NCBI GenBank assembly: GCA_025766275.1
Contig: JAFKAC010000041.1
Coordinates: forward strand, 434,001 to 498,000
Direction: 5' to 3'
Length of the DNA stretch: 64,000 nucleotides
Source: Lactarius indigo
Lineage: Eukaryota > Basidiomycota > Agaricomycetes > Russulales > Russulaceae
Below the pieces are notes generated by a model, which was given only the letters and a program-made list of their open reading frames with translations, did not search any database and had not been told where the DNA came from. Both the position numbers and the translations under genes were made by a program. Numbering within the stretch: the first letter of the stretch is position 1; every line of letters begins with the position of its first letter. Below are positions 20,645-52,324 of this stretch, piece after piece.

Positions 20645-20751
20645 TTAAATCACTCGATTTAAGTCCCAAACCCAAATAAGTAAACACTTACTTACTTTGC
20701 GTTGCACTTAAAACACTCGTTTCAAGACAAGGCAAATATATAACCACTTAT

Positions 20752-33180: not shown

Positions 33181-33689
33181 TGTTATGGTACGGACTTGGT
33201 GACTCATTACATACGACTCATGACCGGTTATGACTACAGTCTGGTATCAGTATTAGTCATGGACTCTTACATCGCATCAGTCAGCATGGTAGTACACATG
33301 TGATTGTGACTCGTGTATGACTCATTCCTAGGATAGCTGTACTAGGGTTCGAGCTAGTTACGCTACTGGTTACCTAACATTATAGCGGCGCTTTAAAGCC
33401 CGCGAGTATCTGTATAAGTAGTCGACTTGAAAGACCAAGAGTCCCCATCTTGGTCTTCTTCAATCCACCATCTCGATTCGCCTCTTGTCTGCCTTAGTCC
33501 CTGACTAAGTGCGCCTCCGCTTCTACCCACCAAGGGGTAGTACTTCTTTGTCTTAGCTGCAGCGTGTGTCAGAGTACCCCTGTTCAGCTTGCGTTGGGTT
33601 GACACGTGATCCCCATTCGCCTATACTTCTGCTAAGTCGAATACGCCTTCTCAGAGTCCAAGTCGGACTAACGCCGGTGGAGCGTAACA
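33181..33689 (+). repeat. 5' LTR of element E
   Basis: 509 bp, TGTTATGG...GCGTAACA. It has a TATA-like TATAAG at 33413 and a leader hairpin GACCAAGA/TCTTGGTC. Compared with the 3' LTR and the solo LTR at 52766, this copy has lost CpGs, for example TGTTACGG to TGTTATGG and TTCCGC to TTCTGC. Confidence 0.95.
33413..33457 (+). promoter_or_regulatory. TATA box and predicted 5' end of E transcript
   Basis: TATAAG at 33413 lies 34 nt before ATCTTGGTCTT (33447-33457), which is the exact reverse complement of AAGACCAAGAT just inside the LTR (33692-33702). This is the same self-priming arrangement as in A, B and C. Confidence 0.65.
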
Positions 33690-33710
33690 TTAAGACCAAG
33701 ATCCTCAACC

Positions 33711-35672
33711 GTGGCGTATTCAACCAGAGACCAGTGGACGTCATTCCGTCCCTATCATATTGAAAGACGAGGAGATCGCAACATACCTACAAGATTTCTA
33801 GGAGCAGCTCAGTGGAGAGAACGAGGAGAAGATACCGGGTACTTCGTAGAGTTTAACGGTCCTAACCGTTTCCGACCCGTTGAGTTCAATTTTGAACATC
33901 TCTGTTGGACCGAGGTTACTTGGAACCCCATAGACCATCGCTGGGACATCGTACGACCAGCCGGAAGAAACTATAACTGTGACATCGACGCGCGAGAACT
34001 TAATAGCCGCGCAGACTATGGTCCTATTGACGGACAAGCACAAGAACATACAGACGAAGGAATTAGCGGAGAAGAAGCCTCCGAAAGTCAATCGCCAAGC
34101 AGGGGAACAACCCCAGCAGAAGAGGCCAGCCTAGGGGCTATTGGTGATCATATCATACAACGAACTGAGTCCCTCACCATCCATCAACCCGAACCAGAAG
34201 TAATTCACATCCATAGTCCAGCAGTCGCAATGGCAACTGCCACTATCACGCAAGAAGAGCTGCAGCTCACTACAGAAGCAAGGGATCAAATAGCCTTAGA
34301 AGAACAGAGGCGTATCGCTGAAGAATCGCGAGCCAATTTGGCTCCCATCAACCCATATACCGGTCACCGAATGACCGACGATGACGTAGCAATCCACCGT
34401 GCAATCGGACCCGATGTCGCTGATCCTCCCAGCGGGGGAGGTGGACCTCCTAACGATCTACCAAGAGGAGGAGGAGGACCCCCACCTCGAGGACCCGGAT
34501 TCGAAGGATTTCCTGGGGGGTTTCCAGGCGGACCACCAGGAGGACCACCTGGAGGAGGATTACCAGGTGCAGGTCCCATCGTTCCCCCTCCAAGTAACAA
34601 ACTGGCTGGCGAAGCACCTACAGTATTCGACGGGGAACGCGCCAAAGTTGAGGCGTTTCTCACTCAATGGCATGTCTACTGGGGCATGAATGCCGATGAG
34701 GGCATCATGGCAACTCCATACCGACGTACCTTACTTTTTCTCTCTTACATCAAAGGTGTCAACGTTAGCGAATGGGTATTGGCCATGCTTACCTGGCTCA
34801 ACGGCCAGATACAAGTCGGTATACCCCGTACTAGTGAAGGATTATGGAACGAAGTTACGCGCAGTTTTATGCAGCGCTTCCGAAATACCATGGAACAGGA
34901 GCAAGCCCAATACGAACTCAAGAAAGGAGTTAAAATGATAGGGGGCAACCTAGATGAGTATTGCACCCAATTCGAACAGCTCATACGCCGCGCTCAGTAT
35001 AGGCTCGATGATCCCCAAACACTGGATCTATTCGCAAGCGGACTACCAAAAGACCTATATGAAAAGGTCTACACCCTCAACAATCCTCGCAACTATCGCG
35101 AGTGGAAAGAAGCTGCCACAACCCACCAACAACAATACCTTCATCTTAAAGCGGTGTTAAATAAGGGAATACCCCCAGGACAGGGACAAGGATGACCGCG
35201 TCAACAACGACAGTGGCAGGGACCACCAAGGAGTTCCTGGCAACCGCGGAACCTACCCCGAGATCCTAATGCTATGGATACCTCGGCGGACCGAATTCGA
35301 GGGCGACTTGCAGGAGCAGAAGATATACTTGCTCCGCGTCCCCCATACCGACCAAGGGGAGGATTCCTCCAACGGGGAGGAGGACGTAACAACCAAAGGC
35401 CAGTCACTTGCTATAACTGCGGAAAGGACGGACATATGGCACGAGATTGCAGACAACCACAAAGAGGCTACCAGCCTCAAGCATCTACTAGTCGGTATAT
35501 CGACACCGACTATCATCAACAAGAACCTGAAGTCGCTACTAGGGCGGTCCAAGACGTACCCCCTCAACAACGCGCCAGTGACTGGCTTAACGGAGTAGCA
35601 GGAGAATCAGACGATGTAAAGGACATTATCCTCCAGCAATTGTGGAAAAAGGAGGGTTTTCAGGACGCCTGA
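33711..35672 (+). pseudogene. gag: Gag of element E with premature TGA
   Basis: The frame opens GTG-GCG (context TCAACC before it) without ATG. No ATG occurs from the predicted transcript start (33447) to 34018, and the first in-frame ATG is near 34230. The N-terminal domain carries FEHLCW (F-x4-W). A Gly/Pro-rich stretch follows, then the capsid domain (AGEAPTVFDGERAKVEAFL). TGA at 35193-35195 interrupts the frame after GQGQG. The same frame continues to a CCHC knuckle (CYNCGKDGHMARDC) and ends at TGA 35670-35672. The premature stop fits CGA to TGA. Pol is again in the -1 frame and overlaps the gag end. Confidence 0.9.
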
Positions 35673-36428
35673 ACCCATCGGCCTGGGTGAGGGCGGTTAA
35701 TTGTAACAGTGTAATCATGACTCGCTATCGTTCTATGAGAGTTCCAGTATTGATCTGCACCAGTTACGCAATGGCCGACATACGAGCACTAGTCAATTCA
35801 GGAGCAACCCATTGCTTCATGAAACCCTCCTTCGCAAAAAGGATGGGACTCGGGACCAAGTTACTCGATATCCCGAAGAAAATATGGAATATTGATAATA
35901 CGGAAAATAAATCGGGGCGTATCACTCATTATACGGATGTCGATGTCCAAACTAAAGGAATCCACAAGGAAATACGCTTCCTTATCACGGACATCGGCAA
36001 CGAAGACATCGTGCTCGGATACCCCTGGCTCGCTATTTATGACCCACACATCAAATGGTCACAAGCTGCCATCCACGAAGACATGCTCCCCATCATTATT
36101 CGCTCGACCAATCCCTACCTCAAAACAACAACGGTTGCGGCGGCCATCGCTCAGAACGACAATTATGAAATTGTACACTCTTGTGTTATCACAGACGAAC
36201 AACGACAACAGTTTGAAGAAGGGTGCCGAATTAGAGCCACCGCCACCGACCTCGCTATTGCTGCTCAGCAATATGTTACTAAAGCTGAGTTACCTCCCGA
36301 ATACCGCGAATTTGAACGTCTCTTCAGCGAAGAAGCATCGGACAGGTTTCCACCCAGCAGGCCCTGGGATCATGCTATCGAATTCAAACCAGGGACAGCT
36401 GACGCCATCGATTGCAAAATATACCCTA
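35642..36428 (+). pseudogene. pol: Element E pol, N-terminal part (inactive protease)
   Basis: The -1 frame relative to gag, open from about 35642. It starts with a segment (NPSAWVRAV) like that before protease in element B. The protease motif reads LVNSGATHCF: the catalytic Asp of D-S/T-G is Asn (codon AAT at 35795-35797), explained by GTCGAT to GTCAAT, a CpG transition. The frame reaches the start of the RT region (DHAIEFKPG, DCKIYP) and is cut at 36428 by C2. It resumes after one CCCTA at 46275. Confidence 0.9.
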
Positions 36429-37124
36429 TGTCACGAACCTATAAACCTGGTCGTGACTCAAGGTGCTTAGGACCGGGCCGGACTGGACCGGGCTTATGTC
36501 ATCAACTTCCTAAAGGGGAAATCCGAAATCGGAGTTTGAATTTCGCTCTCCGACGGTCACGTGATGTGTCACGTGATTACTCTGTCTCTCCAAGTCACAT
36601 GTGTACACGCACGTGTATCAATCAACAATTGATCGTTTATCGATCAACGAAGATAATCAACCAAGTCACAAGGAACATGTGTTCTAATCACGGGTTCCGC
36701 AGCTGCTGCGGAATCACGCCACTATGGCGCAATATGGCGCCATCGACTGCGGCGCAGTCGTACCATGCTTACCCTGTATTCTGATTGGACGGTATTAATA
36801 ACTTGTCTCTGGAATGTTCCAGTCCGCAGTATTGCGCAGCACTCGTGAACAGGCCCTAAGCCTGCCCTAAAGTTACGCACAGACCACCCCCTGTAGTATA
36901 TAAGCCAGCTCAATCTATCGGACAGTCCCTCAGACTGTCCACTTGTGACATCTTCCTCTCTTGCCTCTCAGCTCCTTCGAGTGCCCCACCTTGTGTGCGC
37001 CACTACCTTCTTTGAGCCAAGAACGCCTCCTCTTCGCCCCCTTCGACACTCTCTCCGTCTCTACCTCGCCCGCCGTCGTCTTCAACCGTACCCCTCGCTG
37101 TCGAGTGACAGTGAGTTCTCCACA
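36429..37124 (+). repeat. 5' LTR of C2
   Basis: 696 bp, TGTCACGAACC...CTCCACA. U3 holds paired CACGTG palindromes (36558-36563 and 36570-36575) and AT-rich inverted repeats. TATATAAG is at 36897-36904. A 5' splice donor GTGAGT sits at 37111, 14 nt before the LTR end. Confidence 0.96.
36897..36941 (+). promoter_or_regulatory. TATA box and predicted 5' end of C2 transcript
   Basis: TATATAAG at 36897-36904, then AGACTGTCCA at 36932-36941, the exact complement of the primer-binding site TGGACAGTCT (37127-37136). The spacing fits transcription starting near 36931. C1 has the same arrangement. Confidence 0.7.
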
Positions 37125-37166
37125 CTTGGACAGTCTCTCCAATAGACTGACCTCGGGCTTCCCCAG
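37111..37166 (+). other. Candidate leader intron of C2 that creates ORF1 ATG
   Basis: Donor A|GTGAGT after 37110, branch-like ACTGACC, acceptor CCCCAG|TGGCTGAC ending at 37166; 56 nt. Joining A37110 to TG (37167-37168) makes ACATGGCT, with G at -3 and +4, a good start context. The intron removes the LTR end and the primer-binding site. C1 conserves donor, branch, acceptor and length. Confidence 0.68.
37127..37136 (+). other. Self-priming primer-binding site of C2
   Basis: TGGACAGTCT, two bases inside the LTR end, complementary over 10 nt to the predicted RNA 5' end at 36932-36941. It lies inside the candidate leader intron. Confidence 0.65.
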
Positions 37167-38428
37167 TGGCTGACTACACCTACGAGTACGACTTCTCGCA
37201 GTACGGTCAGTGGGACGGAGATTCTGCCAGCTACCAGTCAGAATTCGACAACCAAGGTAGCCCCCTCGACTTTTCCCGCACCTCCCCTGTTCCCTCCACC
37301 TCCGCTGTCCGTCTAGACAGCCTCCGCTTCACCGCCCCCTACACCCCCGCCACCTTCGGTGGTGACGAACCCCCCGCCCCTGTTGCCCTCGTTCGGGACG
37401 CAACCCCCGAACTAGTTTACCCTTACGCTCCGGCTGAAGAAGCCACCCCTCGTCCATCCCCTCGCCCCTTGTCCCCCAGCACCGCCCAGTTCTACGAAGA
37501 GGTCCTCGAGATCATCGACCTCAACGGGAACGTTGCCCCCTTGACCCCTGAACCTCGCGCCGAGTCTGCGCCTCCCCTCCGAGTCCCGACCCCCCGCCCC
37601 CCTCTTTCCCTTTGTGGCTCTCCTTCGCCACCTCCTGTTCTTCCTCTGACTCCTAGTCGCCCTCCGTCTCCTGTTCCGATCCCCTCCCGCCTTGCAACCC
37701 CCGACTCGCCGATTGACTACGAGCGAGTAGCAGAACAAGGCCCCGTTTTCCCTCCGGCTCCTCACCCCGACCAGGAGAACCTTCCCCCCCTCGGCCCTAC
37801 TGCCTACGTGGCACCCCCCTGCCTCCTTCACCAAGGAGAACACCCCCACCAGTACATCGCAGTCGTTACCCCTCAAGGGGAATCTTGGCGGCCCGCCTCC
37901 ACCACACTCCGGGAACTTATCACTAAGATCCCCCTCGCCACCTCCCTTGTCTCTTTTCCTCCAGTTTTCCCTTCCGTCACCCCCTTCCGTCTTCTTCCCC
38001 CCCACGTCTACACCCTTTTCCCGCGCATCGTTGACCCTGCTCAACACCCCGACTTCCCTCCCCTGTACATCTGTTCGAAGGCCATCTACGACCTTCCCTC
38101 TCCCGACACCCCTTTCGGGACTATCCACTACGACTTCAGGGAAGGACTGAGACGCGCTTTCGCCCCCCTTGCTAACGTCCACAGGGCAGGGTACATTGAT
38201 TCTCTAGTGACACTAGAAATCCAGGACTTTTTGGACGGAAGGATTGTTACCACTTACGGACACTTGCGTTTCTCTTTTAACGGACAAATTTACGCTTACC
38301 ACCAGGCCTATTTCTTTGAGGACTTGGTTCGTTCCGCCCCCCATCTTCTTGCTTATTGCCTTTCGCCTCGAATTCCTGCCGACCCCTTTAATTTCATTTC
38401 CACCTTTCCTGACAACCAGCCACTTTAG
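37166..38428 (+). CDS. ORF1 of C2, unknown protein with splice-created start
   Basis: 420 residues, no internal Met, stop at 38426-38428. An in-frame TGA lies six codons upstream of the GTG, so the start must be at or next to the AG|TG junction. Predicted N-terminus Met-Ala-Asp-Tyr. Residues 1-30 are Tyr/Asp/Gln-rich, about 30-215 a Pro-rich disordered region with acidic clusters, and 215-420 a folded domain with aromatic and Pro residues (RLLPPHVYTLFPR, FREGLRRAFAPL, IVTTYGHLRFSFNGQIY). No signal peptide, membrane span or known catalytic motif. High similarity to C1 ORF1 with mostly conservative changes indicates selection on the protein. Function unknown. It could be an accessory capsid-associated or nuclear-entry factor, but nothing proves this. 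Confidence 0.88.
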   Translation: MADYTYEYDFSQYGQWDGDSASYQSEFDNQGSPLDFSRTSPVPSTSAVRLDSLRFTAPYTPATFGGDEPPAPVALVRDATPELVYPYAPAEEATPRPSPRPLSPSTAQFYEEVLEIIDLNGNVAPLTPEPRAESAPPLRVPTPRPPLSLCGSPSPPPVLPLTPSRPPSPVPIPSRLATPDSPIDYERVAEQGPVFPPAPHPDQENLPPLGPTAYVAPPCLLHQGEHPHQYIAVVTPQGESWRPASTTLRELITKIPLATSLVSFPPVFPSVTPFRLLPPHVYTLFPRIVDPAQHPDFPPLYICSKAIYDLPSPDTPFGTIHYDFREGLRRAFAPLANVHRAGYIDSLVTLEIQDFLDGRIVTTYGHLRFSFNGQIYAYHQAYFFEDLVRSAPHLLAYCLSPRIPADPFNFISTFPDNQPL

Positions 38429-38453
38429 ATAAGTGGTTATATATTTGCCTTGT

Positions 38454-38473
38454 CTTGAAACGAGTGTTTTAAG
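38454..38473 (+). other. RNA hairpin 1 with GAGT loop
   Basis: CTTGAAAC-GAGT-GTTTTAAG: 8-bp stem (one G-U pair), four-base loop. Present unchanged in C1 (20707-20726, minus). Confidence 0.55.
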
Positions 38474-38517
38474 TGCAACGCAAAAGTAAGTAAGTGTTTA
38501 CTTATTTGGGTTTTGGA

Positions 38518-38537
38518 CTTAAATCGAGTGATTTAAG
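38518..38537 (+). other. RNA hairpin 2 with GAGT loop at ORF2 acceptor
   Basis: CTTAAATC-GAGT-GATTTAAG: perfect 8-bp stem. Its last two bases are the AG of the candidate 3' splice site before ORF2. Conserved in C1 (20644-20663). Confidence 0.55.
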
Positions 38538-39520
38538 TGCCGCCTTCTACTCCATTTACCTTCAACTTATCTGAAGAACAAAGGCTCGCACGAGCCCGAG
38601 TTAACTTCGAGTCCCACAGGCAGCGGCAACTTGACCGCTACTACCCCGTCACTTCCACCTACGACCTCATCGATAACCCCCGTCTTGATTGTTGGACTGA
38701 ACCCCCTATCGCCTTACGCACCCTTATCGACCTCTTTGACTTTGGAGAAGTCATCCCCGAAAGGGCTTACTACGAGTTTATTGACGATCTTTCTGAAGTT
38801 GTCAAGGCTGCTGACGAGCAACTCCTTTATTGGCATCTTTCAAACTCCGTCTCTGCCACCAACCACCCAACAGACCAACTCCTAGTGTGGACCAAGAGTG
38901 ATTATCTTTGGTTCGTCCACATTCCCCCTCGTCGAGACCACTACATTCGGCAACTAGAAGACGGTTTCTCTCTTCATTACGTTGATCGACTCCGCCTCAC
39001 GTATCAGGAAATACAGATTTCCTTCCAAGAACTCCGAGTGATCATTCACCCTGACTCTGCCCCCCGTCTAGTCATCTCTGATAGTTCGGAGCTCACTTAT
39101 TCCTTCGCCACCTCTGCGTGGGAAACTACCCTGACCAATCCCGACCGAAACCTTGTCAACCCAAGTATCTGGCATTACCCCCCATCCACCTCTGACGACC
39201 CAGAGTTAGTCTCGATTCTCAACGCTAGAGAAACCTTCCGAACTCCGCCTTTACTCCGCCGAATTACAGATCGCCTTCCCCCTAGTTCCCCTGAAACTGA
39301 AGACGAATCTTCAGACTCTGACATCTCCCTTCATAACGGAGACACTAACCAGCCGCCTAGTCCAAACGACGGTTGGGGACCAACTCAGACCTCAGGCCCC
39401 TGTTGGTGCTCTCAAGAAGTCTGCACCTGCGGTTATCGTCCCAACACCCCCCCGACACCCCCCAACGTAGTGTTGTGGTCCCCTGGAGTTAACTATCTAC
39501 CTTATAGAAAAAGGGGCTAG
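38537..39520 (+). CDS. ORF2 of C2, unknown protein
   Basis: 327 residues, no internal Met. The GTG is preceded directly by an in-frame TAA, so nothing upstream can belong to it. AG|TG at 38536-38539 allows a splice-created ATG, either from the leader donor (A37110) or from a local donor A38485|GTAAGT (52-nt intron 38486-38537). Features in order: Glu/Arg/Gln-rich start, an aromatic central domain (YLWFVHIPPRRDHYIRQL, LTYSFATSAWETTL with the F-x4-W module), a Ser/acidic stretch, then CWCSQEVCTCG near 290, a possible metal-binding Cys cluster. Highly similar to C1 ORF2. No known family recognised. Confidence 0.86.
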   Translation: MPPSTPFTFNLSEEQRLARARVNFESHRQRQLDRYYPVTSTYDLIDNPRLDCWTEPPIALRTLIDLFDFGEVIPERAYYEFIDDLSEVVKAADEQLLYWHLSNSVSATNHPTDQLLVWTKSDYLWFVHIPPRRDHYIRQLEDGFSLHYVDRLRLTYQEIQISFQELRVIIHPDSAPRLVISDSSELTYSFATSAWETTLTNPDRNLVNPSIWHYPPSTSDDPELVSILNARETFRTPPLLRRITDRLPPSSPETEDESSDSDISLHNGDTNQPPSPNDGWGPTQTSGPCWCSQEVCTCGYRPNTPPTPPNVVLWSPGVNYLPYRKRG

Positions 39521-39529
39521 ATAGTATAG

Positions 39530-39568
39530 ATTGTCAAAATAAATTTTACGAGTGTAAAATTTGACAAT
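39530..39568 (+). other. RNA hairpin 3 with GAGT loop between ORF2 and ORF3
   Basis: Inner stem AAATTTTAC/GTAAAATTT closes a GAGT loop, with an outer stem ATTGTCAA/TTGACAAT. The loop is the same four bases as in hairpins 1 and 2. The inner stem is conserved in C1 (19619-19640). Confidence 0.55.
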
Positions 39569-39660
39569 TTCCCGAGTCAAAAAACCTGGATCCAATTCAT
39601 TGGGCAATTAACCTGGCATCCTCACACGTCGCCCAAAGAAGAACTCATCGTCCCTTCCAA

Positions 39661-40254
39661 GTGGACGATCGGCCCATAGCCTCTACCCCTAGTACCCCTG
39701 TTACCCCAAGAAGGGCCCCCAGAGCTCGTCGAGCTACCAACACCCAGATTCCCCTTCCGAGTATTAACCAAGCCGGACCAAGTGAACCGGTGTACCCCAG
39801 TATCCAAGCAACTCCGACTGCAAGACAGCATTCCACAAGCAGTGACGAAGCCCAGTATCTTGAAACTCAACCCCGAGAAATCCATTGTCACCTCCCTGAG
39901 GCTATCCTAGTAACCAAGAGCCTACCAACCCGAACCCCCCGAGAACTCGACGTGTTCAGAAGGCACTGTTCTCTGTTGTACCAAAACCGGCACAATCTTG
40001 AAACCCTGTATTTTTCCCAGCCGCTTACGCGCATAAGCGAGATTTCGACAAGCCCCTTGTATTTCCAAGACTTCTTGTGGAGAAGTAAGACAACCCTGAC
40101 CCACTTTGGTATTTGGGAAGAATACCATTGGATCCGTCGTTCACAAAGACCCCATCGTCCGGATAGAGCTACCCTCCTCCCCGCGTACAAAGTCTACTAC
40201 CCCTGGAACCTAGACAGTTGGACTGTCACCCGCCTCACCAGAAGAGGTGAATGA
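39661..40254 (+). CDS. ORF3 of C2, unknown protein
   Basis: 197 residues, no internal Met. It begins at CCCTTCCAAG|TGGACGAT, a plausible 3' splice site where a preceding A gives ATG-GAC-GAT. Residues 1-75 are Pro/Thr/Arg-rich. From about 85 on it is compact and aromatic (DVFRRHCSLLYQNRH, FQDFLWRSKTTLTHFG, YHWIRRSQRPHRPDR) and ends with YYPWNLDSWTV, a W-x4-W version of the module shared with Gag N-termini. The stop overlaps the gag ATG by 4 nt (ATGA), as in C1. The tight overlap could allow reinitiation on gag. Function unknown. Confidence 0.82.
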   Translation: MDDRPIASTPSTPVTPRRAPRARRATNTQIPLPSINQAGPSEPVYPSIQATPTARQHSTSSDEAQYLETQPREIHCHLPEAILVTKSLPTRTPRELDVFRRHCSLLYQNRHNLETLYFSQPLTRISEISTSPLYFQDFLWRSKTTLTHFGIWEEYHWIRRSQRPHRPDRATLLPAYKVYYPWNLDSWTVTRLTRRGE

Positions 40255-41801
40255 ACACACAACGACCTCTCACACCAGAAGAAAAGGCCCACATCCCAGT
40301 ATACTTCTTCGATCCCTATTTTTCTCTCACCGATAATCTTTACTACGCCAAGTGGAAAGAGGAGGACATCTCCAGCCCTACTGGAAAACACCCGTGGACG
40401 GTTGTCGCCACCCAGCACCAAATTGTTTTTCAGGACCTAAAGGAAGCCTTTCCCGGTATCGACAAGGTCAAGGACCTAAGTTACAACTCCCTACACGCCA
40501 CCTTCAAGGGAAAGAACGTTCGTTGGAACTTTGTAAACGAACAGTGGATCTACCTAAACAACAAACCAGTCCATTTTAACACACCTAGTCAATCCGAAGA
40601 TTCAGACAGCGACACAGAGGAAGTATCGCAAATCCTAGACACTACTACCAAGAAACTCTCCGGTCTACTCTCCCAAGTAACCTCCCGACCCTCGACACCT
40701 CAGATTTCCCCTAGTACCTCAGGACCAAGTCGTTTCCCTGCAACAGACCCACCACATCGACTCCCATCACCACCCCTAACCGTTCAAGCCTCTTCCTCAG
40801 TACCCCCCTTATCCGTTCCTCCCGTACCCACTGCAATGGCAGCCCCCGCACCTGCAAAAATTTTAGGCGCAGCGCCTGAACCCTTTGATGGCAAGCCCAA
40901 CAATGCTGAGGCCTTTTGGAACAACCTTGCCAATTACTTCCATCTAAACCGGGATATCTTTGACACTGAAGATAAAAAGATATCCACTGCCCTTACCTAT
41001 TTCAAGGTCGGAACCCCAGCAGGAGAATGGGCTCAAGATAGGCAAAAGAAAGCCTTAAACCCGACCGGAGGGGCAGCAGTATCCTTTGGCACCTGGGCGC
41101 AGTTCAAAACTGACTTTAATGCACACTTCGTTCCTGGTCACACTGCCATGGAATCCACCAACAAAATGTATTCTCTAAAGATGGGGACCCGACCTTTCAA
41201 CGAATGGTTCCAAGAATGGTCAACCCATGCTACACGAAGTGGTGCAAATGAACAAACCAAGATGTATGCCTTCCGACAAGCTATTCCAACAGCTCTGAAT
41301 ATGAAGCTGCTTGGTATATCCCCCATCCCTACCACCTTCGACACCCTTGTTGAGAAAGCAAGAGAATTCGATCGCGCATATCGAATTTACGCTGGTCACG
41401 CCATTAACCAGTTTAACAAAACCCATAAGACCACCGCAGGACGGGCCGTCCTAGCAGAGGACGATAGCGTTAATGTCAACGCTTCCTCATCTCGTACTAC
41501 CAAACCAAGGAACAAACTCACCAAAGAAGAGCGAGAGTACCGCTTCAAGAATAAACTCTGCCTGTACTGTGGCAAGCCAGGCCACGTACTTAAAGAATGT
41601 CACGCCAAGACGGCAGCCATGAAGGCCAAAGGAGGCCAATCCAACAACAACGCTAGGGCGCGTGGCGCCTTTGTTGATGAACCAAGTCAGGAGGAAGCAC
41701 CTGCTGACCACCCAGCAAACATTGGAGCGATATATCGAGAGATACTCCCTTTTGACCCGGACGCACGTCCGCGTTCGGTGCCTATTAATGAGGATTTTTA
41801 G
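40251..41801 (+). CDS. gag: Gag of C2
   Basis: 516 codons. The ATG at 40251 is the first ATG after the predicted transcript start 3.3 kb upstream, and the next one (40836, in frame) lies just before the capsid domain, as in the other families. N-terminal domain to about residue 105 with NFVNEQWIY, acidic and Ser/Pro-rich linker to about 195, capsid domain about 205-390 (AAPEPFDGKPNNAEAFW onward), CCHC knuckle CLYCGKPGHVLKEC near 436, and C-terminus PINEDF. It ends GAG GAT TTT TAG (41790-41801), the proposed frameshift site. It forms the particle and binds element RNA. Confidence 0.96.
   Translation: MNTQRPLTPEEKAHIPVYFFDPYFSLTDNLYYAKWKEEDISSPTGKHPWTVVATQHQIVFQDLKEAFPGIDKVKDLSYNSLHATFKGKNVRWNFVNEQWIYLNNKPVHFNTPSQSEDSDSDTEEVSQILDTTTKKLSGLLSQVTSRPSTPQISPSTSGPSRFPATDPPHRLPSPPLTVQASSSVPPLSVPPVPTAMAAPAPAKILGAAPEPFDGKPNNAEAFWNNLANYFHLNRDIFDTEDKKISTALTYFKVGTPAGEWAQDRQKKALNPTGGAAVSFGTWAQFKTDFNAHFVPGHTAMESTNKMYSLKMGTRPFNEWFQEWSTHATRSGANEQTKMYAFRQAIPTALNMKLLGISPIPTTFDTLVEKAREFDRAYRIYAGHAINQFNKTHKTTAGRAVLAEDDSVNVNASSSRTTKPRNKLTKEEREYRFKNKLCLYCGKPGHVLKECHAKTAAMKAKGGQSNNNARARGAFVDEPSQEEAPADHPANIGAIYREILPFDPDARPRSVPINEDF
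41790..41801 (+). other. Candidate -1 frameshift site at gag/pol of C2
   Basis: GAGGATTTTTAG, identical to B and C1. The -1 frame is open from here for about 200 nt with no ATG before the protease, so pol cannot readily start by itself. Confidence 0.58.
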
Positions 41802-41995
41802 GCTCTTCCATCGTAGCACTGTCGATTGGAAGTATTCGTGCCAGTAGCGTTGTACACGGCCTTTCCCTACTAGAGACGCTCGGAGCCGAGCATGTACCTG
41901 CAGAAACAATTCGGAATAGGAGAGCTCCCTCAATTGTTCTCAGAGTTACACTAGTAGGAAAGAAGTCTGGCAAAGAAATCAGTGCCCGTGCCCTG

Positions 41996-44900
41996 TTGGA
42001 CAGTGGTGCGGAGGGCATCATTGTGGATGATGGGTTTGCGCGTGCAAACAACCTAACAATGCGAACACTAATTAAACCCTTACCAGTTAGAAACGTGGAT
42101 GGGTCTCCCAACAAGACGGGATCTGTTAAGTATACTACGATCCAGAAACTACGGATCAGAACTTCTGACGACAACTACCATGACGAAACTGTGGAACTCT
42201 ATGCGACTACTCTAGGGGAGCACGATATAATCTTAGGAACAGATTGGCTCCAAGCGCATAATCCTGAGATCGATTGGCATCAACCAAAAATAGCCTTCAC
42301 CCGATGCCCAAAAACCTGCGCCCTGTCCTCCTCAGCGGTTGTCATCTCTTCGAAAACACCACAAACGCGACATACGACTATTAACATCCTCGAACTCGAC
42401 TCTGGCCAAGAAACCTGTCTCCCCATAAATGAGGAAAGTGAACCCCTGGAACCTGCCTTCATTAACGACGCCTGGGAACCCTGGCTGTGGATCCACAGCT
42501 TTAGCAAGTATGACCACCTTGCCATCCGAGCAAAAATAACTACAAGCACCAAGATAGCAGCACGCACTGCACCTAAGCCTTCCACCGACCACATTCCGAG
42601 CCACTTTCAACGATACACTAAAGTATTCAGCGAAATCGCATCCCACCGACTACCCCAACATCAGCCCTGGGATCACGCAATTGATCTCAAACCAGGTGCC
42701 ACTATGAAGAATTGTGGCATTTATCGACTTACGCCAAAGGAATCCGATGCCCTCAAGGAGTACATCTCTGAACACCTAAAGAAAGGTTACATTCGACCAT
42801 CTAAGTCACCTATGGCCTCCCCCTTCTTCTTTGTCGACAAAAAGGATGGCAAACTCCGACCTGTGCAAGACTACCGCGCCCTCAACAACATAACCATTAA
42901 GAACGCAGCCCCCCTTCCCCTTATCCCTGAACTTATCGACAAACTCCATGGTGCGCGCTACTTTACCAAGCTAGATATTCGTTGGGGATACAACAATATC
43001 CGCATCCGCGAAGGCGATGAATACAAGGCAGCCTTCAAAACATCCTTAGGACTCTTTGAGCCAACCGTAATGACTTTTGGCCTCTGCAATGCCCCTGCCA
43101 CTTTCCAAACATTTATGAACCAAATCTTCGAGTCCTTGATTGACGGTGGACACGTAGTGGTCTACCTCGATGACATCTTGATCTTCACCGACGATATCTC
43201 CTCACTCACAGCGTTGACACACGACGTGCTTCAGCGGCTGGAACGCCACGATCTCTACCTGAAACCTGAAAAATGTACGTTTGCACAAACCTCAGTCGAA
43301 TACCTCGGAATCGTTATTTCCGATGGCCAAGTCTCTATGGATCCTGCAAAGGTTGCAGGAATTACTCAATGGCCCACTCCGCGCACTGTCAAACAAGTAC
43401 AAGCCTTTCTAGGCTTTTGCAATTTCTATCGACGCTTCATTAAAGACTACTCCACGGTCGCCCGTCCATTGTTTGACCTAACCAAGAAAGATGTCCCCTT
43501 TTCTTGGGGTACTGCGGCGGAAAACGCTTTCCGCGCCCTGATTAAATGCTTCACCACAGCTCCTGTCCTTGCCCTACCTGACCATTCTAAACCCTTCCGC
43601 CTCATCACTGATGCGAGTGATTTTGCTACCGGTGCCATCCTGGAACAACCTGATGCCTTGCAACGTTGGCATCCCGTCGCCTTCCTTTCTAAATCCCTCC
43701 TTCCTGCCGAGCGTCACTACGAAATCTGTGACAAGGAACTTCTTGCCATCATCCATGCCTTACATGCTTTCCGCCACTACCTGGAAGGGCGGGACGACGT
43801 TACTGAAATCTGGTCTGACCATGGCAACCTTGTCTATTTTACCACGAAGCAGAAACTTTCCCGCCGACAGGCCCGTTGGGCCCTTTTCCTCTCTCGCTTC
43901 CAGTTCATCATCATCCACAAACCTGGTACACAAAATAAGTCTGATGCCCTGTCTCGGCGTCCAGATCATAAAAAGGGGATAGCGGATGAAGATGAAAAGC
44001 GAGTACTCCTAGACACCAAATATTTTTCCATCAATGCAGTACAACGAACCGCAGTAACCATTCAAGGAGATACCACCCTCCGGCAGCGTATCAAAAACAC
44101 CCAGACCTATGACAAGGAAGTCAGCATGGCCCTAGAATCCCTTCTAAAAAATGGCCCTCGATCCCTAGCTAAAGGCCTAGAAGAGTGGAACTTAGAAGAT
44201 GGCATTATCTTGTTCAAAGGACAAGTCTACGTTCCAAAAGACGACAACTTACGAAGAGACATTGTTAAAACATACCATGACCACGTCGCCACAGGACATC
44301 CAGGGCGATGGAAAACCTACGAGTTAATATCCCGAGACTTCTGGTGGCCAGGAATATCAACCTTCGTCAAAACCTACGTTGATGGTTGCGCCACATGCCA
44401 AGCTACTAAAATCAAACCACGCACCCAAGTACCCCTACAACCAAATGCAATACCTGAAGAAATATGGGGAACCATCACAATGGACTTTATCACCGACCTT
44501 CCCCTATCCCACAACTACGATTCACTATTCGTAGTAGTTGATCGACTCAGCAAAGCCATAGTCATTTCCCCTTGCAACAAGACCATCACGGCAGATGAAA
44601 CAGCCCAACTCTACCTTGAAAATGTCTGGAGACGTACCGGCCTACCTCGACAAGTCATATCCGACAGAGGCCCCCAGTTTGCATCAAAGGTCATGCAAGA
44701 AATTTGGAACAAACTCGGAGTCAAATCCACGCTATCCACAGCTTTCCACCCACAAACCGATGGAGAAACTGAACGTGTCAACCAAGAACTCGAACAATAC
44801 CTCCGTGTCTTCTGCAACTTCCAACAAGATAACTGGGTGGATCTAATTCCATTCATGGAATTTGCACACAATGCCCGACAACATAGCGCAACCCACAAGT

Positions 44901-45562
44901 CCCCCTTTGAGGTTTGGTATGGATACAAACCAGAATTCATTCCCCCGACCCACTTCACCACCAAAATACCAACAGCCGAGGAGAGACTAAATATGCTAAA
45001 TCAAATCCGCTCCGAAGTTACTGCAGCCCTTAAAGTAGCAGCGGAAGTCATGAGAGGGTCGAAAACACCCACCCCCTCTCATGAATTCAAGACAGGCGAT
45101 CTAGTCTGGCTGGAAGGGACCAACATCCATACTACCCACCCCAAAGCTAAACTTGCCCCACGACGCCATGGCCCCTTTAAAGTCCTTTCCACCTGGGGAG
45201 TCAATTGCAAGCTCCAACTCCCCAAGGCATGGCGCATTCACCCAGTCTTCCACAACTCCTTGATCTCTCCGTACAAAGAAAACACCACGCATGGCCCCAA
45301 CTTCACCCGACCACCCCCGGAGATCATCCAAGGGGAAGACGAACACTACGAAGTAGAAAGGGTCTTGCAATCCAAGGTATCGCCTAACAAGAAGGGCATA
45401 CTCTACTTGATCAAGTGGAAGGGGTATCCCGACTCTGAAAATTCCTGGCTCCCCTCCTCCCAAATGACCCATGCGCAAGACCTTGTTAGTCAATTTCACA
45501 AGGCCAACCCCGGTGCCCCTAAACCAAAGTCAACTAGTGCTAGTGGAATAGCACGACGTTAA
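41996..45562 (+). CDS. pol: Pol polyprotein of C2
   Basis: The listed start is a TTG within the protease motif. The real protein most likely begins at the frameshift (TTA at 41798), adding about 66 residues of pre-protease. Order: protease LLDSGAEG, RT with YLDD (VVYLDDILIF), RNase H (DASDFATGAILEQ, CDKELLAI, WSDHGNL), integrase zinc region (HVATGHPG, GCATCQ), catalytic residues in MDFITDLP, VISDRGPQF and TDGETERVNQELEQYLR, GPY-like region, and a chromodomain (LYLIKWKGYPDSENSWLP). TAA at 45560-45562 is followed by AAAAAGGGGATAC, the polypurine tract, and the 3' LTR. No defect is visible. Confidence 0.96.
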   Translation: MDSGAEGIIVDDGFARANNLTMRTLIKPLPVRNVDGSPNKTGSVKYTTIQKLRIRTSDDNYHDETVELYATTLGEHDIILGTDWLQAHNPEIDWHQPKIAFTRCPKTCALSSSAVVISSKTPQTRHTTINILELDSGQETCLPINEESEPLEPAFINDAWEPWLWIHSFSKYDHLAIRAKITTSTKIAARTAPKPSTDHIPSHFQRYTKVFSEIASHRLPQHQPWDHAIDLKPGATMKNCGIYRLTPKESDALKEYISEHLKKGYIRPSKSPMASPFFFVDKKDGKLRPVQDYRALNNITIKNAAPLPLIPELIDKLHGARYFTKLDIRWGYNNIRIREGDEYKAAFKTSLGLFEPTVMTFGLCNAPATFQTFMNQIFESLIDGGHVVVYLDDILIFTDDISSLTALTHDVLQRLERHDLYLKPEKCTFAQTSVEYLGIVISDGQVSMDPAKVAGITQWPTPRTVKQVQAFLGFCNFYRRFIKDYSTVARPLFDLTKKDVPFSWGTAAENAFRALIKCFTTAPVLALPDHSKPFRLITDASDFATGAILEQPDALQRWHPVAFLSKSLLPAERHYEICDKELLAIIHALHAFRHYLEGRDDVTEIWSDHGNLVYFTTKQKLSRRQARWALFLSRFQFIIIHKPGTQNKSDALSRRPDHKKGIADEDEKRVLLDTKYFSINAVQRTAVTIQGDTTLRQRIKNTQTYDKEVSMALESLLKNGPRSLAKGLEEWNLEDGIILFKGQVYVPKDDNLRRDIVKTYHDHVATGHPGRWKTYELISRDFWWPGISTFVKTYVDGCATCQATKIKPRTQVPLQPNAIPEEIWGTITMDFITDLPLSHNYDSLFVVVDRLSKAIVISPCNKTITADETAQLYLENVWRRTGLPRQVISDRGPQFASKVMQEIWNKLGVKSTLSTAFHPQTDGETERVNQELEQYLRVFCNFQQDNWVDLIPFMEFAHNARQHSATHKSPFEVWYGYKPEFIPPTHFTTKIPTAEERLNMLNQIRSEVTAALKVAAEVMRGSKTPTPSHEFKTGDLVWLEGTNIHTTHPKAKLAPRRHGPFKVLSTWGVNCKLQLPKAWRIHPVFHNSLISPYKENTTHGPNFTRPPPEIIQGEDEHYEVERVLQSKVSPNKKGILYLIKWKGYPDSENSWLPSSQMTHAQDLVSQFHKANPGAPKPKSTSASGIARR

Positions 45563-45573
45563 AAAGGGGATAC

Positions 45574-46269
45574 TGTCACGAACCTATAAACCTGGTCGTG
45601 ACTCAAGGCGCTTAGGACCGGGCCGGACTGGACCGGGCTTATGTCATCAACTTCCTAAAGGGGAAATCCGAAATCGGAGTTTGAATTTCGCTCTCCGACG
45701 GTCACGTGATGTGTCACGTGATTACTCTGTCTCTCCAAGTCACATGTGTACACGCACGTGTATCAATCAACAATTGATCGTTTATCGATCAACGAAGATA
45801 ATCAACCAAGTCACAAGGAACATGTGTTCTAATCACGGGTTCCGCAGCTGCTGCGGAATCACGCCACTATGGCGCAATATGGCGCCATCGACTGCGGCGC
45901 AGTCGTACCATGCTTACCCTGTATTCTGATTGGACGGTATTAATAACTTGTCTCTGGAATGTTCCAGTCCGCAGTATTGCGCAGCACTCGTGAACAGGCC
46001 CTAAGCCTGCCCTAAAGTTACGCACAGACCACCCCCTGTAGTATATAAGCCAGCTCAATCTATCGGACAGTCCCTCAGACTGTCCACTTGTGACATCTTC
46101 CTCTCTTGCCTCTCAGCTCCTTCGAGTGCCCCACCTTGTGTGCGCCACTACCTTCTTTGAGCCAAGAACGCCTCCTCTTCGCCCCCTTCGACACTCTCTC
46201 CGTCTCTACCTCGCCCGCCGTCGTCTTCAACCGTACCCCTCGCTGTCGAGTGACAGTGAGTTCTCCACA
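45574..46269 (+). repeat. 3' LTR of C2
   Basis: 696 bp, one difference from the 5' LTR. Ends CTCCACA before the CCCTA duplication. The last 120 nt contain the same GTGAGT donor. Confidence 0.96.
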
Positions 46270-49200
46270 CCCTATGACTCAGGAGGAAGACAAGAAACTA
46301 CGCGAATGGATCGACGAACAACTAAAAAAGGGGTACATACAACCCTCTAAATCTCCATACGCCTCGTCCTTCTTCTTTATCAAGAAGAAGGATGGTAAGT
46401 TGTGACCCGTTCAGGACTACCGAAAAATCAACGCCGTCACCATCCGCAACCAATACCCACTCCCCCTCATCTCTGATCTTATCACCGACCTCAGTAACGC
46501 CCACATCTATACCAAGCTCGATGTTAGATGGGGATATAACAACATACGCATCAAAGAGGGAGACGAGGAAAAAGCGGCGTTCAAAACGCGATATGGACTA
46601 TTCGAACCAACAGTGATGTTTTTCGGCTTAACCAATTCCCCAGCGACGTTCCAGACTATGATGAACTTCATCTTCAGGGACACCATCGCAAAACATGAAA
46701 AACGCGGCACGGTTATTCGGGTCTACATGGACGACATTGGCATTGCTACGGGTCTTACTCATTCCTTATCAGATCACATCGAGGCAGTTAAAGACGTCCT
46801 CCACGTATCCGCGGAACACGATTTATATTACAAACTCGAGAAATGCCTCTTCCACTCCCCGCGTATGGATTACCTGGGGGTAATCCTTGAAAAGGGGGTG
46901 ACACGCATGGACCCCGTCAAAATTTCGGGTATTAAAGACTGGCCAACGCCAACCAAAGTTAAGGACGTCCGCTCTTTCCTTGGATTCTGCAATTTTTATC
47001 GACCCTTCATACGAGGATTTGCAACCAAAGCGCGACCACTCAACAAACTTACGCGCAAAGATACCAAATGGCACTGGGGGAACGAAGAAGAAAAGGCATT
47101 CCAAGACCTTAAAACTCTCGTCACTAGTGAACTTGTCTTAGCGCATCCAGACCTCACACAACAATTCGAATTAGAAGTCGACGCATCTGGCTTCGCCACA
47201 GGCGCAGTCCTTCTTCAACGAAAAGCAGACGGCAAACGACATCCCATCGGCTACTACTCATCCACCCTCAATGAGGCCGAACGAAATTATGACATCTACG
47301 ATCTCGAACTCCTCGCGATCGTCAAAGCCTTTCGTCACTGGAGACCCCTCTTAGCGGGTTCCCCTCACAAGATCAAAGTGTTCTCCGACCATCTCAACTT
47401 GCAATACTGGAAATCGCCACAAAAGATCAGTAGACGCGTGGCCAGGGAAGTACTCGAACTCTCAGAATACGATTTTGAGATTCATCACATCAAAGGGACT
47501 TCTAATGGACGCGCTGATACACTATCGCGGAGACCAGACTATGACCAAGGAGAGAACGACAACAAAGGAATCACGGTACTGCCAGAAAGCGTCTTTGTGC
47601 GCGCTACTATACTGGAAGAACCACAACACCCACATTGGAGACCCGAGATCCTACTGGTAGAAATGACTCCGGAACACCCTATTTATGAACAAGACACAGC
47701 TAAGTTGAAACCTTGGGTTGACGCTCACAAGCTAAAAGACATCGAAGGGACGTGGTACAAAGACGGACGCCGAGTGGTCACCGGCGGGATCCATGACAAA
47801 CGTACCATCATCGCGGCCCATCACGACTCCCCAGTCTATGGTCATCCTGGTATCAAACGAACTCTCCAACTCACCGAACGACATTATTGGTGGCCACAGA
47901 TGAAAAACGATGTCACGGACTATGTCAAAGGCTGTGCCGAGTGCCAGCAACATAAAGTTAATCTTCATCCCATCAGAGCACCTCTACAACCCATCTATCC
48001 TAAACCGGAAGCCCTGCCATTCGAAACCATCGCAGTGGATTTCATCACTAAGCTCCCTGTATCCCGCGGTTATGACTCAATTCTGACCGTGACCGATCAC
48101 GACTGCACTAAAGCAGCTATTTTCATCCCATGTAACGAAGAGATAACAGCCGAGGGAACGGCCGCTCTGTACGTCTCCCATGTCTTCCCACGCTTTGGAC
48201 TCCCCTCGCGTGTCATCAGTGATCGAGACCCTCGCTTCGCATCCAAGTTCATGTGGGAGATATGCAAAATCCTTGGCATCAGCCAAAATATCTCAACCAC
48301 TTATCATCCCCGAACCGACGGCCAATCAGAACGAACAAACCAATGGCTAGAACAATACCTCCGCTTCTGGGTGAACGAACGACAAGACGACTGGGTTCGT
48401 TATCTGCCAATGGCAGAATTCACGCATAACAATTGGCCTAACGAGACCACGCGGGAGTCCCCCTTCTTTCTCTTATCAGGGTTCAACCCTCACGCTGATT
48501 GGACCGATAGGCCTTCCCCTATCCCACAGGTGTCTTTGCGGTTAGATCAGTTCAAACAAGCACGCCAACGAGCCTTCTCTTGTATGCTCTGGGCGCAAAA
48601 GTCATGGATCAAGCATAAAGATACGCCCAAGTTCGAAGAAGGAGACCTTGTGTGGCTAGAAGGACGCCACTTACGCACACACCAACCAACCGCGAAACTT
48701 GCTGCTAAACGGCATGGACCGTTTAAGGTCATCCAGGTGATGTCCCCTGTCAATTATCGCCTCGGACTTCCCACGCAGTGGAGCATCCACGATGTCTTCC
48801 ACATAGATCTTCTCACACCTTATCGTGAAACACCCACGCACGGACCAAACTATCAGCGCCCACCACCGGATTTGGTCGATAACGAGGAAGAGTATGAAGT
48901 CGAGAAGATTCTGGACTCTCGGCGATTCGGCAGAAGACGCCGGCTCCAATACCTCGTGAAATGGAAGGGGTACCCAGACTCCGATAACCAATGGATCGAT
49001 AAGGATGACGTATTTGCCGATGAAGCCATTCGGGAATTCAAACATTCGAACCCTGACAGAGAAATGCATATAAGGACGGCCCTCTGTCGTGATAAGTCCC
49101 CATCTCTCATTCCTCTCATGTCCTCTGCTCGACGCAATGACCAGCTCGCACTCCTCTCTACCCTTATCAACGACTCCTCCGCCACGCCTGTTGACCCCGA

Positions 49201-50290
49201 CTCCACCAACGACACCACGACCGCTGGAACTACAGATGGAGGCTGTACCTCCATGCAGCATGAGGAAGACGGCCCTATCACTAGTGAAGAACTGCACCAG
49301 ACATTGCAACGATTCCCTGTGCCCGTACAGGGAACTCTCGACGACGATCCAGCAACAACTCGACCAGCACCTCCGCCAATGTACGCCCTCACAAACCCCA
49401 ACACTGGTGAGCCTGAAACCTTCCTCATGGAAGACGAACTCTTTCGGCTTCAAGCAGCTGTCCTGCACAGTACGACCTCCCGACGCTATGAAGAAGTACG
49501 AACAAGAATGGAAGGAGACGGCGGCGCGGTGGCAGCAGGAGCAACTGCATATCGCCGCCTGCCGACGACGAATGATGAAGGAGCGGAGGGAGTATTGGAT
49601 GAAGATGAGGATGAAGACGAGCTTAGAGACTATTACCCCATCAGGCACGCATTCCTTAATCATGAATTCTACGCTGAAGATCCAGCCGCCACTCCCTACC
49701 TCGTCGACGCAGCGGGGGGGCCTCTACACAGAGGACGAGTCGCCGTGGCACAAGCGGCTCGTTATACACCAATGGGGGAACGAGACCCAGCAACCAGGGT
49801 CGTCGTCCCTGAAGGGTTCCAGGTCAATCGAGGACCCGATTACATTCCGTTCCCGATCAAGCTCCCCAACGGACCGACGGTACAAGCATCCCACGTACAG
49901 GTTATCCGAGGAGGAGACCCCTTCGTACTCGGACTAGCCCCGGGGTCGGGCTTCCTCTATGGAAAACCCCTCTACGCTACCCCGCACCTTCCAAAAAACA
50001 ACCGCGCATTCATACCTCACGAGGAGTATTTTATGCTCCGCGATCGTCACCCCACCGACTTACTGCTAATGCGCATCGGAGACGTCACCCTTACTCAGGA
50101 ACTGTGCCGTTTCCGGCAGTTCGCCTTTGCCGAAGACCAGCTGGAGAAGCGGATCCGGCAATTGCAGTTGGAGCGGGAGATGGTAGTTGCAGACAAAAAG
50201 GACAGTCTCTATCGTCTCGAGAGGGCTAACATATTGGTGCGGATGGAAGATGAAGCGGAACGAATGAGGCAAGAATCGGTAGCGGACTAG
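46270..50290 (+). pseudogene. pol: Element E pol, RT to chromodomain plus long C-terminal extension
   Basis: Resumes the E pol frame after C2. TGA at 46403-46405 interrupts RT between KKKDGKL and PVQDYR, where Arg is invariant in the other elements, so CGA to TGA is the likely event. From 46406 the frame is open to TAG 50288-50290: RT (YMDDIGIATG), RNase H (DASGFATGAVLLQ), integrase (GCAECQ, VDFITKLP, VISDRDPRF, TDGQSERTNQWLEQYLR), chromodomain (LQYLVKWKGYPDSDNQW, near 48950). Then come about 415 more residues: a Ser/Thr/Asp-rich linker, an acidic run (DEDEDEDE), a folded-looking part (PEGFQVNRGPDYIPFPIK) and a C-terminal coiled-coil-like segment (LEKRIRQLQLEREM). B and C Pol stop soon after the chromodomain. 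Confidence 0.93.
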
Positions 50291-50831: not shown

Positions 50832-52324
50832 GTGTGCATGGCTCCGTGCTTGATTTGAGGGCCTGTGCTTGTGCCTGCACAGACGATTCTGGGGGTGTGG
50901 TGGTGGATTTGAGGGCGGATATGGACAATCCAACGGGCAGTACGTTTAATCCATGAGCGTGCACAGTTTGGTGTGCAGTCCAAGGTGCAGTCTGTGGGGC
51001 AGGAGTTGGGGAAAGGGGTGGAGACACGGATGCGTTTGGATACCAGGTCGGAGACGATGGAGGAAGAGCTATCAAACAGGGATCAGCCTACGAAGTATGT
51101 ATTATGAAGGAAATACCGTACTTGGCTCATTCTCTTCATCGTCGTCATCTCTGTCACCACCATTGTCACCGCCGCCGTCACCATCGTCATTGTCAAACTC
51201 CCGCTCCGAGTCCCACTCCATCACGTCCTCCAGATGATGGCCAGAGTCACTATGGAAGTCAACATTGCGTGCACCTAAGTTGTCCTCTTGATTTTCCTTG
51301 TCACCCGTACCCGATCTAGTTAAGACGGGCTCTTAGTCTGAGAGCGAATTCTTGGACAACATCAGACTCACTGGAGATAAAGCTGGGCACGGTGTGCCTC
51401 CGAGATAGCAAGTGACAGTATATTCTTTGGCTTTGTTTTGCGTTGCTTCTGGGCCTTGAACTGCAAATTCCAGACTTTTCGCATACCATCTTTCTCAGAT
51501 TGAGACAGACAAATTGTGATGGGGAAGTCGTCCGGAGATTGGATGCGATGTTGCCCTCGGAAGTGTGCATGGAGACTGTATGTCCATACAGCAGGACTAT
51601 CGTCAGGACAACGGGGGCAGATAACTGGAACATTTGAGCAAGGAGATGCCTCAGAAGAAGTGGAGGCAGTTGCATAGTTGAAATGTGTCATATTGACACA
51701 TTTTGACTTCTTGTGGTCCACCGAGACGCTTCCAGCAGCTCCGCAGGCCTTCCTTAGGTAGATCTGGCACATTGGAGCAGGGCGAAGACACAGCCCACAG
51801 AGCTCTTCGGAACTATCAAGCAGACCATCGTGTAGGATGTGTGCGCCCATATGTTCAAGGACGCGTCGTCCATTCTTCCGGTTCACTGTCGACCCACATC
51901 TCGAACAGCCTTGACTGTTTATTTCCAAGTAGTTGGTCTGTTTTTCGTCGCAGACAAAGCACGCCATCCCTAAACAAAGTCACTACATGATAATAGTTAA
52001 TATATGGTCCCGACATACCTTTGAAGCGGTAAGGGAAGAATTCTGTGCGTCTCAGCACTGGCAAGCTTTGGTAGTCCTGTGGCCGAAGGTCTTGAAACAG
52101 GCTACAGGAAAGCGTCACCAGGAAGCTGCCTTCAAAGAGAAATGTCAGCTTTCCAGGTGTTAGAATTGAAATCGCAGGATTCAGCGATTGGACATATCGA
52201 CCATCGACGTTCTCGCAATTCGCCTCCATTTGCATGGACCAGCACCAGTCATGTACATGCGTTGGATCATCTTCAACTGTTGCAGGAACAAGGCGCAGGA
52301 GTTGGCAGTCTACCTTAGCAGTCG
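50832..52324 (-). pseudogene. PHD-finger gene copy F2, central segment
   Basis: Near-identical inverted copy of F1 10894-12150, extending about 260 bp further upstream than F1 shows in this window. It encodes the Cys-rich domain (CFVCDEKQ, CSRCG, CGLCLRP, CPRCPDD) with the same 49-nt intron. Upstream it reads DDPTHVHDWCWSMQMEANCENVDGR-type sequence and SLFQDLRPQDYQSLP. The frame continues through the solo LTR E' into 53389-53811 once one AGTCG is removed (LLADPTAKVD across the joint). The segment is cut at 50832 by element E. Confidence 0.75.

Follow-up and report, generated by a model that had tools for sequence, protein, structure and literature searches.

Avoidance of AUG and putative splice-made start codons in the 3.3-kb leader of a Lactarius indigo chromovirus

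Leaky scanning through AUG-free open reading frames (ORFs) is established over ~900 nt in rice tungro bacilliform virus (RTBV) and is predicted in badnaviruses (PMC5902531). Here we describe a much longer arrangement in a retrotransposon family of the fungus Lactarius indigo, represented by two copies, C1 and C2, in a 64,000-nt stretch of contig JAFKAC010000041.1 (assembly GCA_025766275.1, positions 434,001 to 498,000, forward strand), which we call the window and to whose first letter all coordinates refer. In these elements no AUG lies between the predicted transcript start and gag, and the start codons of two of three accessory genes would be assembled by splicing. The best explanation as a whole, to which we assign a probability of roughly 0.8, combines an AUG-free leader, splice-made starts for ORF1 and ORF2, a CUG start for ORF3, and scanning to gag.

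The family resembles RTBV and the badnaviruses (Caulimoviridae) in that it is reverse-transcribing and carries accessory ORFs ahead of the main ORF that are cleared of internal AUGs; as in RTBV, there is a candidate non-AUG start (AUU in RTBV ORF I) and adjoining ORFs have fused stop and start codons (PMC5902531). The two also differ. The ~900 nt of RTBV lie behind a shunted leader with upstream ORFs (uORFs), ORF II has its own AUG, and splicing serves a distal ORF; in this family the zone is ~3,320 nt long with no upstream AUG, the AUGs would arise at splice junctions, and the structural proteins are unrelated. C1 and C2, with no ATG from the predicted transcript start to gag, do not have the shunted leader and short uORFs of that group. 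The Ty1/copia element BARE1 of barley is similar in that it assigns translation and replication to different RNA pools, spliced and unspliced, but BARE splicing removes 104 nt to give a stop after gag (PMC3735527), whereas splicing here would make starts and, in the case of intron 1, lose the primer-binding site (PBS). Like Tf1/sushi-type elements and fungal chromoviruses, the family codes for reverse transcriptase, RNase H, integrase, and a chromodomain, and its PBS is complementary to the RNA 5' end as in Tf1 (PMC7175516).

Among open-licence PMC papers, a scope that makes absence weak evidence, we found no report of splice-made start codons as a retroelement strategy nor of an AUG-free polycistron of this kind. 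Three Met-less ORFs with a 3.3-kb AUG-free leader are not known from Tf1. In retroviral subgenomic mRNAs, one donor near the 5' end feeds accessory-gene mRNAs and, in familiar cases, the AUG is already in an exon, whereas the AUG here would be assembled at the junction. If our reading is right, this is a new expression strategy in a chromovirus.

AUG in the leaders of C1, C2, and their relatives

The transcript start of C2 is predicted at about 36931 on the forward strand, below a TATA box (TATATAAG, 36897 to 36904) that is the same in all 22 copies covering the site. The sequence-only reading had claimed that no ATG occurs from there to gag, and our recount agrees, with zero in C2 (36931 to 40250) and zero in C1, where dinucleotide content predicts 19.4 and 19.0, respectively. 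On the C2 strand, one ATG (36814) lies ahead of the TATA box and the next is the gag ATG at 40251, which would be the first AUG of the unspliced RNA, as had been proposed; C1, on the reverse strand, is ATG-free between 22372 and 18932. These stretches of 3437 and 3440 nt are the longest in the window on their strands, the runners-up being 888 and 653 nt. The trinucleotide CAT, described earlier as common, occurs 32 times in each zone, and no trinucleotide is more depleted than ATG in either.

The avoidance extends to choices that leave the proteins unchanged. The C2 ORFs contain no off-frame ATG, whereas 1000 codon shuffles with proteins and codon usage fixed give 9.8 on average and never fewer than 3; the same test shows no avoidance in the gag (13 versus 12.4) and pol (48 versus 39.3) controls. 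Taken ORF by ORF in six copies, the test is weaker (P of 0.017 to 0.10 for ORF1, up to 0.015 for ORF2, and 0.023 to 0.047 for ORF3). A synonymous test uses the fact that an xAT codon followed by a codon starting with G creates an off-frame ATG: xAT before G is found in 0/37 cases in C2 ORF1 to ORF3, compared with 49/89 in C2 gag and pol, while before non-G bases the three ORFs have xAT in 38/126; pooled over 23 copies, xAT precedes G in 5/821. The choice of xAT is synonymous, so the selection seen here is at the RNA level rather than the protein level.

Using a 1.5-kb piece of the C2 leader as query, we scored 40 places among 302 candidates in the assembly (90.3 Mb in 291 contigs) and obtained the leader, whole or in part, for 24 of them, C1 and C2 included; among L014, L017, L021, and L022, two copies were filled in with sequence from L004 and L007 and two entered the analysis as partial copies. 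The 24 copies together have 12 ATGs where 432 are expected. Thirteen of the 21 full-length leaders have none and the other eight have one or two, while the partial copy L029 has three in 1,647 nt. All 12 are at sites where most other copies have ACG (nine), GTG (two), or ACA (one), and they look like recent mutations. A second group in the same genome, subfamily B, is 51 to 58% identical in ORF2 and has 0 ATGs in 3,076 nt (L035), 0 in 2,252 nt (L036), and 2 in 2,961 nt (L039), against expectations of 15.2, 11.5, and 14.5. Two members, L037 and L038, have decayed and have a broken ORF2; they carry 24 and 20 ATGs where 27.9 are expected, most of them at sites that used to be ACG. The return of ATGs in decayed copies indicates that selection keeps them out; among the loci examined, none combines many ATGs with intact ORFs, the two ATG-rich ones being those in which ORF2 is broken.

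Compared with an intact relative, L037 and L038 differ mainly by C-to-T and G-to-A changes (138 and 82 in one, 117 and 88 in the other), the pattern that a repeat-directed or methylation-linked process would leave.

The sense strand is C-rich and G-poor, and composition or mutation bias might be thought to have removed ATG. The dinucleotide expectation, the codon shuffles, the gag and pol controls, and the gains of 24 and 20 ATGs mainly from ACG in decayed copies rule this out, and we give it next to no credence. The earlier claims that the avoidance is specific to AUG and reflects selection both hold. On these genomic data, AUG is kept out of the leader by selection family-wide.

Three Met-less reading frames and their candidate starts

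The sequence-only reading described three conserved Met-less ORFs with about 944 codons in total. The ORFs exist and lack Met, although 944 is slightly low: they comprise 425, 327, and 229 codons from stop to stop in C2, or 420, 327, and 222 with the starts proposed here. ORF1 (37167 to 38428, forward strand, as are all C2 features) and ORF2 (38538 to 39520) would code for 420 and 327 residues with the junction AUG and are otherwise Met-free, and ORF3 (39586 to 40254) would code for 222 residues from a candidate CUG. Median ratios of nonsynonymous to synonymous substitution (dN/dS) in frame are 0.103, 0.068, and 0.047 for ORF1, ORF2, and ORF3 (250 pairs from 23 copies, with L029 left out and stop codons skipped), compared with 1.7 to 2.0 in the wrong frame, and these low values imply that the ORFs code for proteins under selection. 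Length and frame are kept in nearly all copies, with ORF1 at 420 codons in 21/21; the exceptions are a 9-nt deletion in ORF3 of L018 and internal stops in ORF2 of L020, L028, and L021 and in ORF3 of L016.

Homologs of ORF1 to ORF3 are present in Lactarius species and in metagenomes, with 44 matches for ORF1, 35 for ORF2, and 7 for ORF3, the ORF1 search scoring the 8000 best candidates only. Their aligned parts have 24 Met in 26,080 residues, and 39/48, 37/47, and 7/7 of these parts are Met-free; the gag and pol products of C2 have 21 Met in 1,774 residues. Pfam gives no match for ORF1 to ORF3 of the window and none among 25 ORF2 family members, one of eight ORF3 members has a weak Ilarvirus coat match (E value of 0.038) that we take as chance, and profiles of the three families match no PDB sequence at E values up to 1. 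The ORF2 C terminus is conserved as CWC..E.C.C...P.TPPTP..VLW. Its CWC-x4-CxC motif followed by P-x-TPPTP-x2-V-x-LW (39435 to 39500) is the best-conserved part of ORF2, and may be a metal site.

Candidate introns precede ORF1 and ORF2. The motif GTRAGT occurs in the C2 leader at 37111, 38486, and 38490 only; each of these sites follows an A and is 50 to 56 nt ahead of the opening codon of an ORF. Putative intron 1 (37111 to 37166, 56 nt) has a donor at ACA/GTGAGT (D1), a branch-like CTGAC, and an acceptor at CAG/TG (A1), and its removal would give GAC-AUG-GCU at the ORF1 start. The signals (A/GT and AG/TG; GTGAGT..CAG) are intact in 22/22 copies covering them and in four of four covering loci among the five of subfamily B. 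The base after the TG of A1 varies (G, T, or A), so that the second residue is Ala, Ser, or Thr, and TG itself is invariant. Conceptual splicing yields 420-residue ORF1 products beginning MADYTYEYDF in C2 and MADFDYEYDF in C1, and in 21/21 copies no AUG precedes the one at the D1/A1 junction in the spliced leader. The exon and junction, CTG TCG AGT GAC A/TG, encode [SL]SD followed by M. Among 33 proteins with the ORF1 N-terminal pattern, 15 gene models, all from Lactarius and all predictions, read [SL]SD followed by M, the D1/A1 product; in two more Lactarius models a different exon precedes M, and of the metagenome proteins eight start with M and three with V.

Putative intron 2 (38486 to 38537, 52 nt) has a donor at A/GTAAGTAAGT (D2) and an acceptor at TTTAAG/TG (A2), and its removal would give A/UG-CCG at the ORF2 start. 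These sites (GTAAGT..AAG) are intact in 24/24 copies and in 5/5 subfamily B loci, and conceptual splicing gives an ORF2 product of 327 residues beginning MPPSTPFTF in both C1 and C2. The D2/A2 junction supplies the earliest AUG after conceptual splicing in 16/21 copies, the other five carrying an apparently recent ATG. Ten predicted gene models have the exon before intron 2, of which six read N[AT]T followed by MPP, two take M from another acceptor, and two have none.

Could these ORFs be translated without splicing? In badnavirus-style leaky scanning on one RNA, ORF1 and ORF2 would start at the GUGs of the supposed acceptors (GTG-GCT and GTG-CCG), ORF3 at its CUG, and gag at its AUG. Every copy has the GTG in frame, V is the first residue there in several metagenome proteins, and passage through AUG-free ORFs is known over ~900 nt in RTBV (PMC5902531). 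Both GUGs are in weak context, however, with C and T at position -3. GUG is a poor start codon in eukaryotes. Starts of this kind also leave unexplained the invariant GTRAGT donor, with an A before it, 50 to 56 nt upstream, as well as the CTGAC and AG signals, and we regard this alternative as unlikely.

No splice-made AUG was found for ORF3, which probably starts at a conserved CUG, a likely assignment though less certain than the rest. All 23 copies have the CTG at 39586 in strong context (A at -3, G at +4), although the linker before ORF3 varies in length; subfamily B also has CTG at this site, with one change nearby in L038. Homology begins at the CTG, five of seven ORF3 homologs having Leu there and unrelated residues before it (P0081 is shifted and P0083 starts later). 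No strong-context CTG lies upstream of 39586 in the C2 leader, where 3.1 are expected (P = 0.053). The ORF3 UGA overlaps the gag AUG in AUGA.

Two other routes to ORF3 were considered and rejected, and one to gag is not supported. Splicing to an ORF3 start at CCAAG/TG (39661) is contradicted by the many copies with TAG or GCG there, and we saw no other conserved AG/TG in the ORF3 frame near its start. A frameshift from ORF2 into ORF3 is incompatible with an ORF3 frame that closes before ORF2 ends and a linker of variable length, and a splice acceptor directly before gag lacks support because CACCAG there becomes CACCGG in L018 and L031.

Primer-binding site, hairpins, and a model of expression

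The PBS (37125 to 37136) lies directly after the long terminal repeat (LTR) and inside intron 1, so RNA without intron 1 could not be primed there. Its TGGACAGTCT is complementary over 10 nt to AGACTGTCCA near the RNA 5' end, a feature of Tf1-type self-priming, and the segment at 36933 to 36943 is the candidate self-primer.

Four conserved hairpins in the leader have the same GAGU loop, and two of them overlap splice sites. H1 (CTGTC-GAGT-GACAG, 37099 to 37111) overlaps donor D1, H2a (CTTGAAAC-GAGT-GTTTTAAG, 38455 to 38474) precedes donor 2, H2b (CTTAAATC-GAGT-GATTTAAG, 38519 to 38538) overlaps acceptor A2, and H3 (AAATTTTAC-GAGT-GTAAAATTT, 39541 to 39562; 21 matched copies) lies between ORF2 and ORF3. 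Paired changes are seen in subfamily B, where a U-A pair becomes C-G in H2b, a double change, and a G-U pair becomes A-U in H2a. We infer that the GAGU hairpins hold splicing down, and a protein-binding or packaging role is possible. Donor 2 of C2 (38485 to 38496) is also in a further hairpin, AAGTAAGT with TTTACTTATT, whose partner strand is not kept in subfamily B.

Transcript start, splicing, and scanning are all inferred from the DNA, and together they suggest the following scheme. Unspliced RNA would keep the PBS and could be reverse-transcribed, and ribosomes on it would scan 3.3 kb to the gag AUG. Removal of intron 1 would create the ORF1 AUG and lose the PBS, turning the RNA into a dedicated mRNA, and removal of intron 2, or the joining of donor 1 to acceptor 2, would create the ORF2 AUG. 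A minority of scanning ribosomes would read ORF3 from its strong-context CUG while the rest go on to the overlapping gag AUG, and the hairpins with a GAGU loop at donor 1 and acceptor 2 would restrain splicing such that enough RNA stays unspliced. We think it probable that neither the genome nor the genomic RNA contains the start codons of two accessory genes, which would be made only at A/UG junctions, while selection keeps the rest of the 3.3-kb polycistron AUG-free in all frames, that intron 1 removal yields a dedicated mRNA, and that the hairpins set the balance, perhaps bound by an element protein. The earlier proposal that a scanning ribosome reaches gag on full-length RNA fits the data, but without the putative splice-made AUGs, the PBS within intron 1, and the conserved ORF3 CUG it was silent on how the Met-less ORFs are translated.

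The avoidance could serve another end, with separate transcripts or internal initiation serving ORF1 to ORF3 and the unspliced RNA guarded against nonsense-mediated decay or uORF translation, not for Gag scanning as such. Any scanned AUG in a 3.3-kb leader makes a uORF, and the avoidance does cover ORF1 to ORF3. This account would still need ribosomes that scan the leader. An internal entry site next to gag would require no AUG-free zone. The account also overlaps the combined splicing and scanning scheme; we consider it quite improbable.

We note, however, several observations that weigh against splice-made starts and the associated features. At the ORF1 junction position, 6 of the 33 proteins have V, the unspliced GTG reading (the three metagenome proteins that start with it and three models that read it internally), and 2, both gene models, have L; in several gene models, Met residues are added upstream or a different acceptor is used. 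Four of the 10 ORF2 contexts lack MPP, and the intron 2 acceptor is weak (AAG) with no clear branch site. C1 has one strong-context CTG upstream of that of ORF3, whose CUG start rests on conservation. H1 is too invariant for a covariation test, and H3 with a GAGU loop is absent in subfamily B loci. Nor did searches of the genome with junction patterns and controls find intron-less copies of the family: one pattern gave 3 matches versus 1 control (one was read and is unrelated), one gave 3 versus 2 controls, none of the 3 with ATG at the junction, one gave 5 versus 1 control (the two with A before TG were read and are unrelated), and another gave none. RNA spliced at intron 2 only would keep the PBS, so the failure to find a copy without intron 2 speaks mildly against such RNA being abundant.

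The elements, their setting, and implications

C2 (36429 to 46269, forward strand) and C1 (about 22742 to 12863, reverse strand) are Ty3/gypsy (Metaviridae) chromoviruses, with LTR pairs 99.86% and 99.85% identical, respectively, 5-bp target-site duplications (CCCTA around C2 and CATTC around C1), and leaders 91% identical to each other. The C2 5' LTR (36429 to 37124) is a direct repeat with 45574 to 46270 (99.86% over 697 nt), its end at 37124 being fixed by the CCCTA duplication, and LTR comparison and the target-site duplication place the 3' LTR at 45574 to 46269. The gag gene (40251 to 41801), at the first AUG of unspliced RNA, matches Retrotrans_gag (PF03732; E value of 4.9e-08). Pfam matches identify pol (41792 to 45562) as coding for protease, reverse transcriptase, RNase H, integrase, and chromodomain, in the order RVP_2 (residues 45 to 172), RVT_1 (349 to 509), RT_RNaseH (597 to 703), H2C2 (817 to 874), and rve (895 to 987), with the chromodomain at the integrase C terminus (Chromo, PF00385; residues 1186 to 1237; E value of 5.4e-13). 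The two genes overlap by ~10 nt in the -1 frame at GATTTTTAG (41780 to 41802), and a -1 shift at the gag stop is likely.

The C1 counterpart extends on the reverse strand from the 5' LTR start to the ORF3 end (22742 to 18929). Conceptual splicing places intron 1 at 22068 to 22014, ORF1 at 22013 to 20752, intron 2 at 20695 to 20644, ORF2 at 20643 to 19661, ORF3 at 19597 to 18929, and the gag ATG at 18932.

C2 sits inside another Ty3/gypsy element (33672 to 50290), whose gag and pol parts flank it, CCCTA being duplicated. Tandem-repeat arrays next to C1 (23233 to 24866 and 25253 to 27734) share repeats in opposite orientation, and a 1.26-kb segment is present twice in the window (10890 to 12149 and 50832 to 52091), inverted and 99.8% identical.

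The three protein families exposed here have no Pfam or PDB-sequence match, and annotation pipelines that require ATG will overlook such genes or model them wrongly; the Lactarius models in our set are labeled hypothetical protein and several are fused or truncated. Dozens of copies also preserve, over 3.3 kb, a natural imprint of selection against upstream AUGs, from which the strength of scanning in a filamentous fungus, the cost of an upstream AUG, and the use of CUG starts become measurable. If the scheme is true, the conflict that retroviruses and LTR retrotransposons face in using one RNA as both genome and message would be solved in this family by a single switch, in which the same splicing that makes a start codon removes, with intron 1, the primer site.

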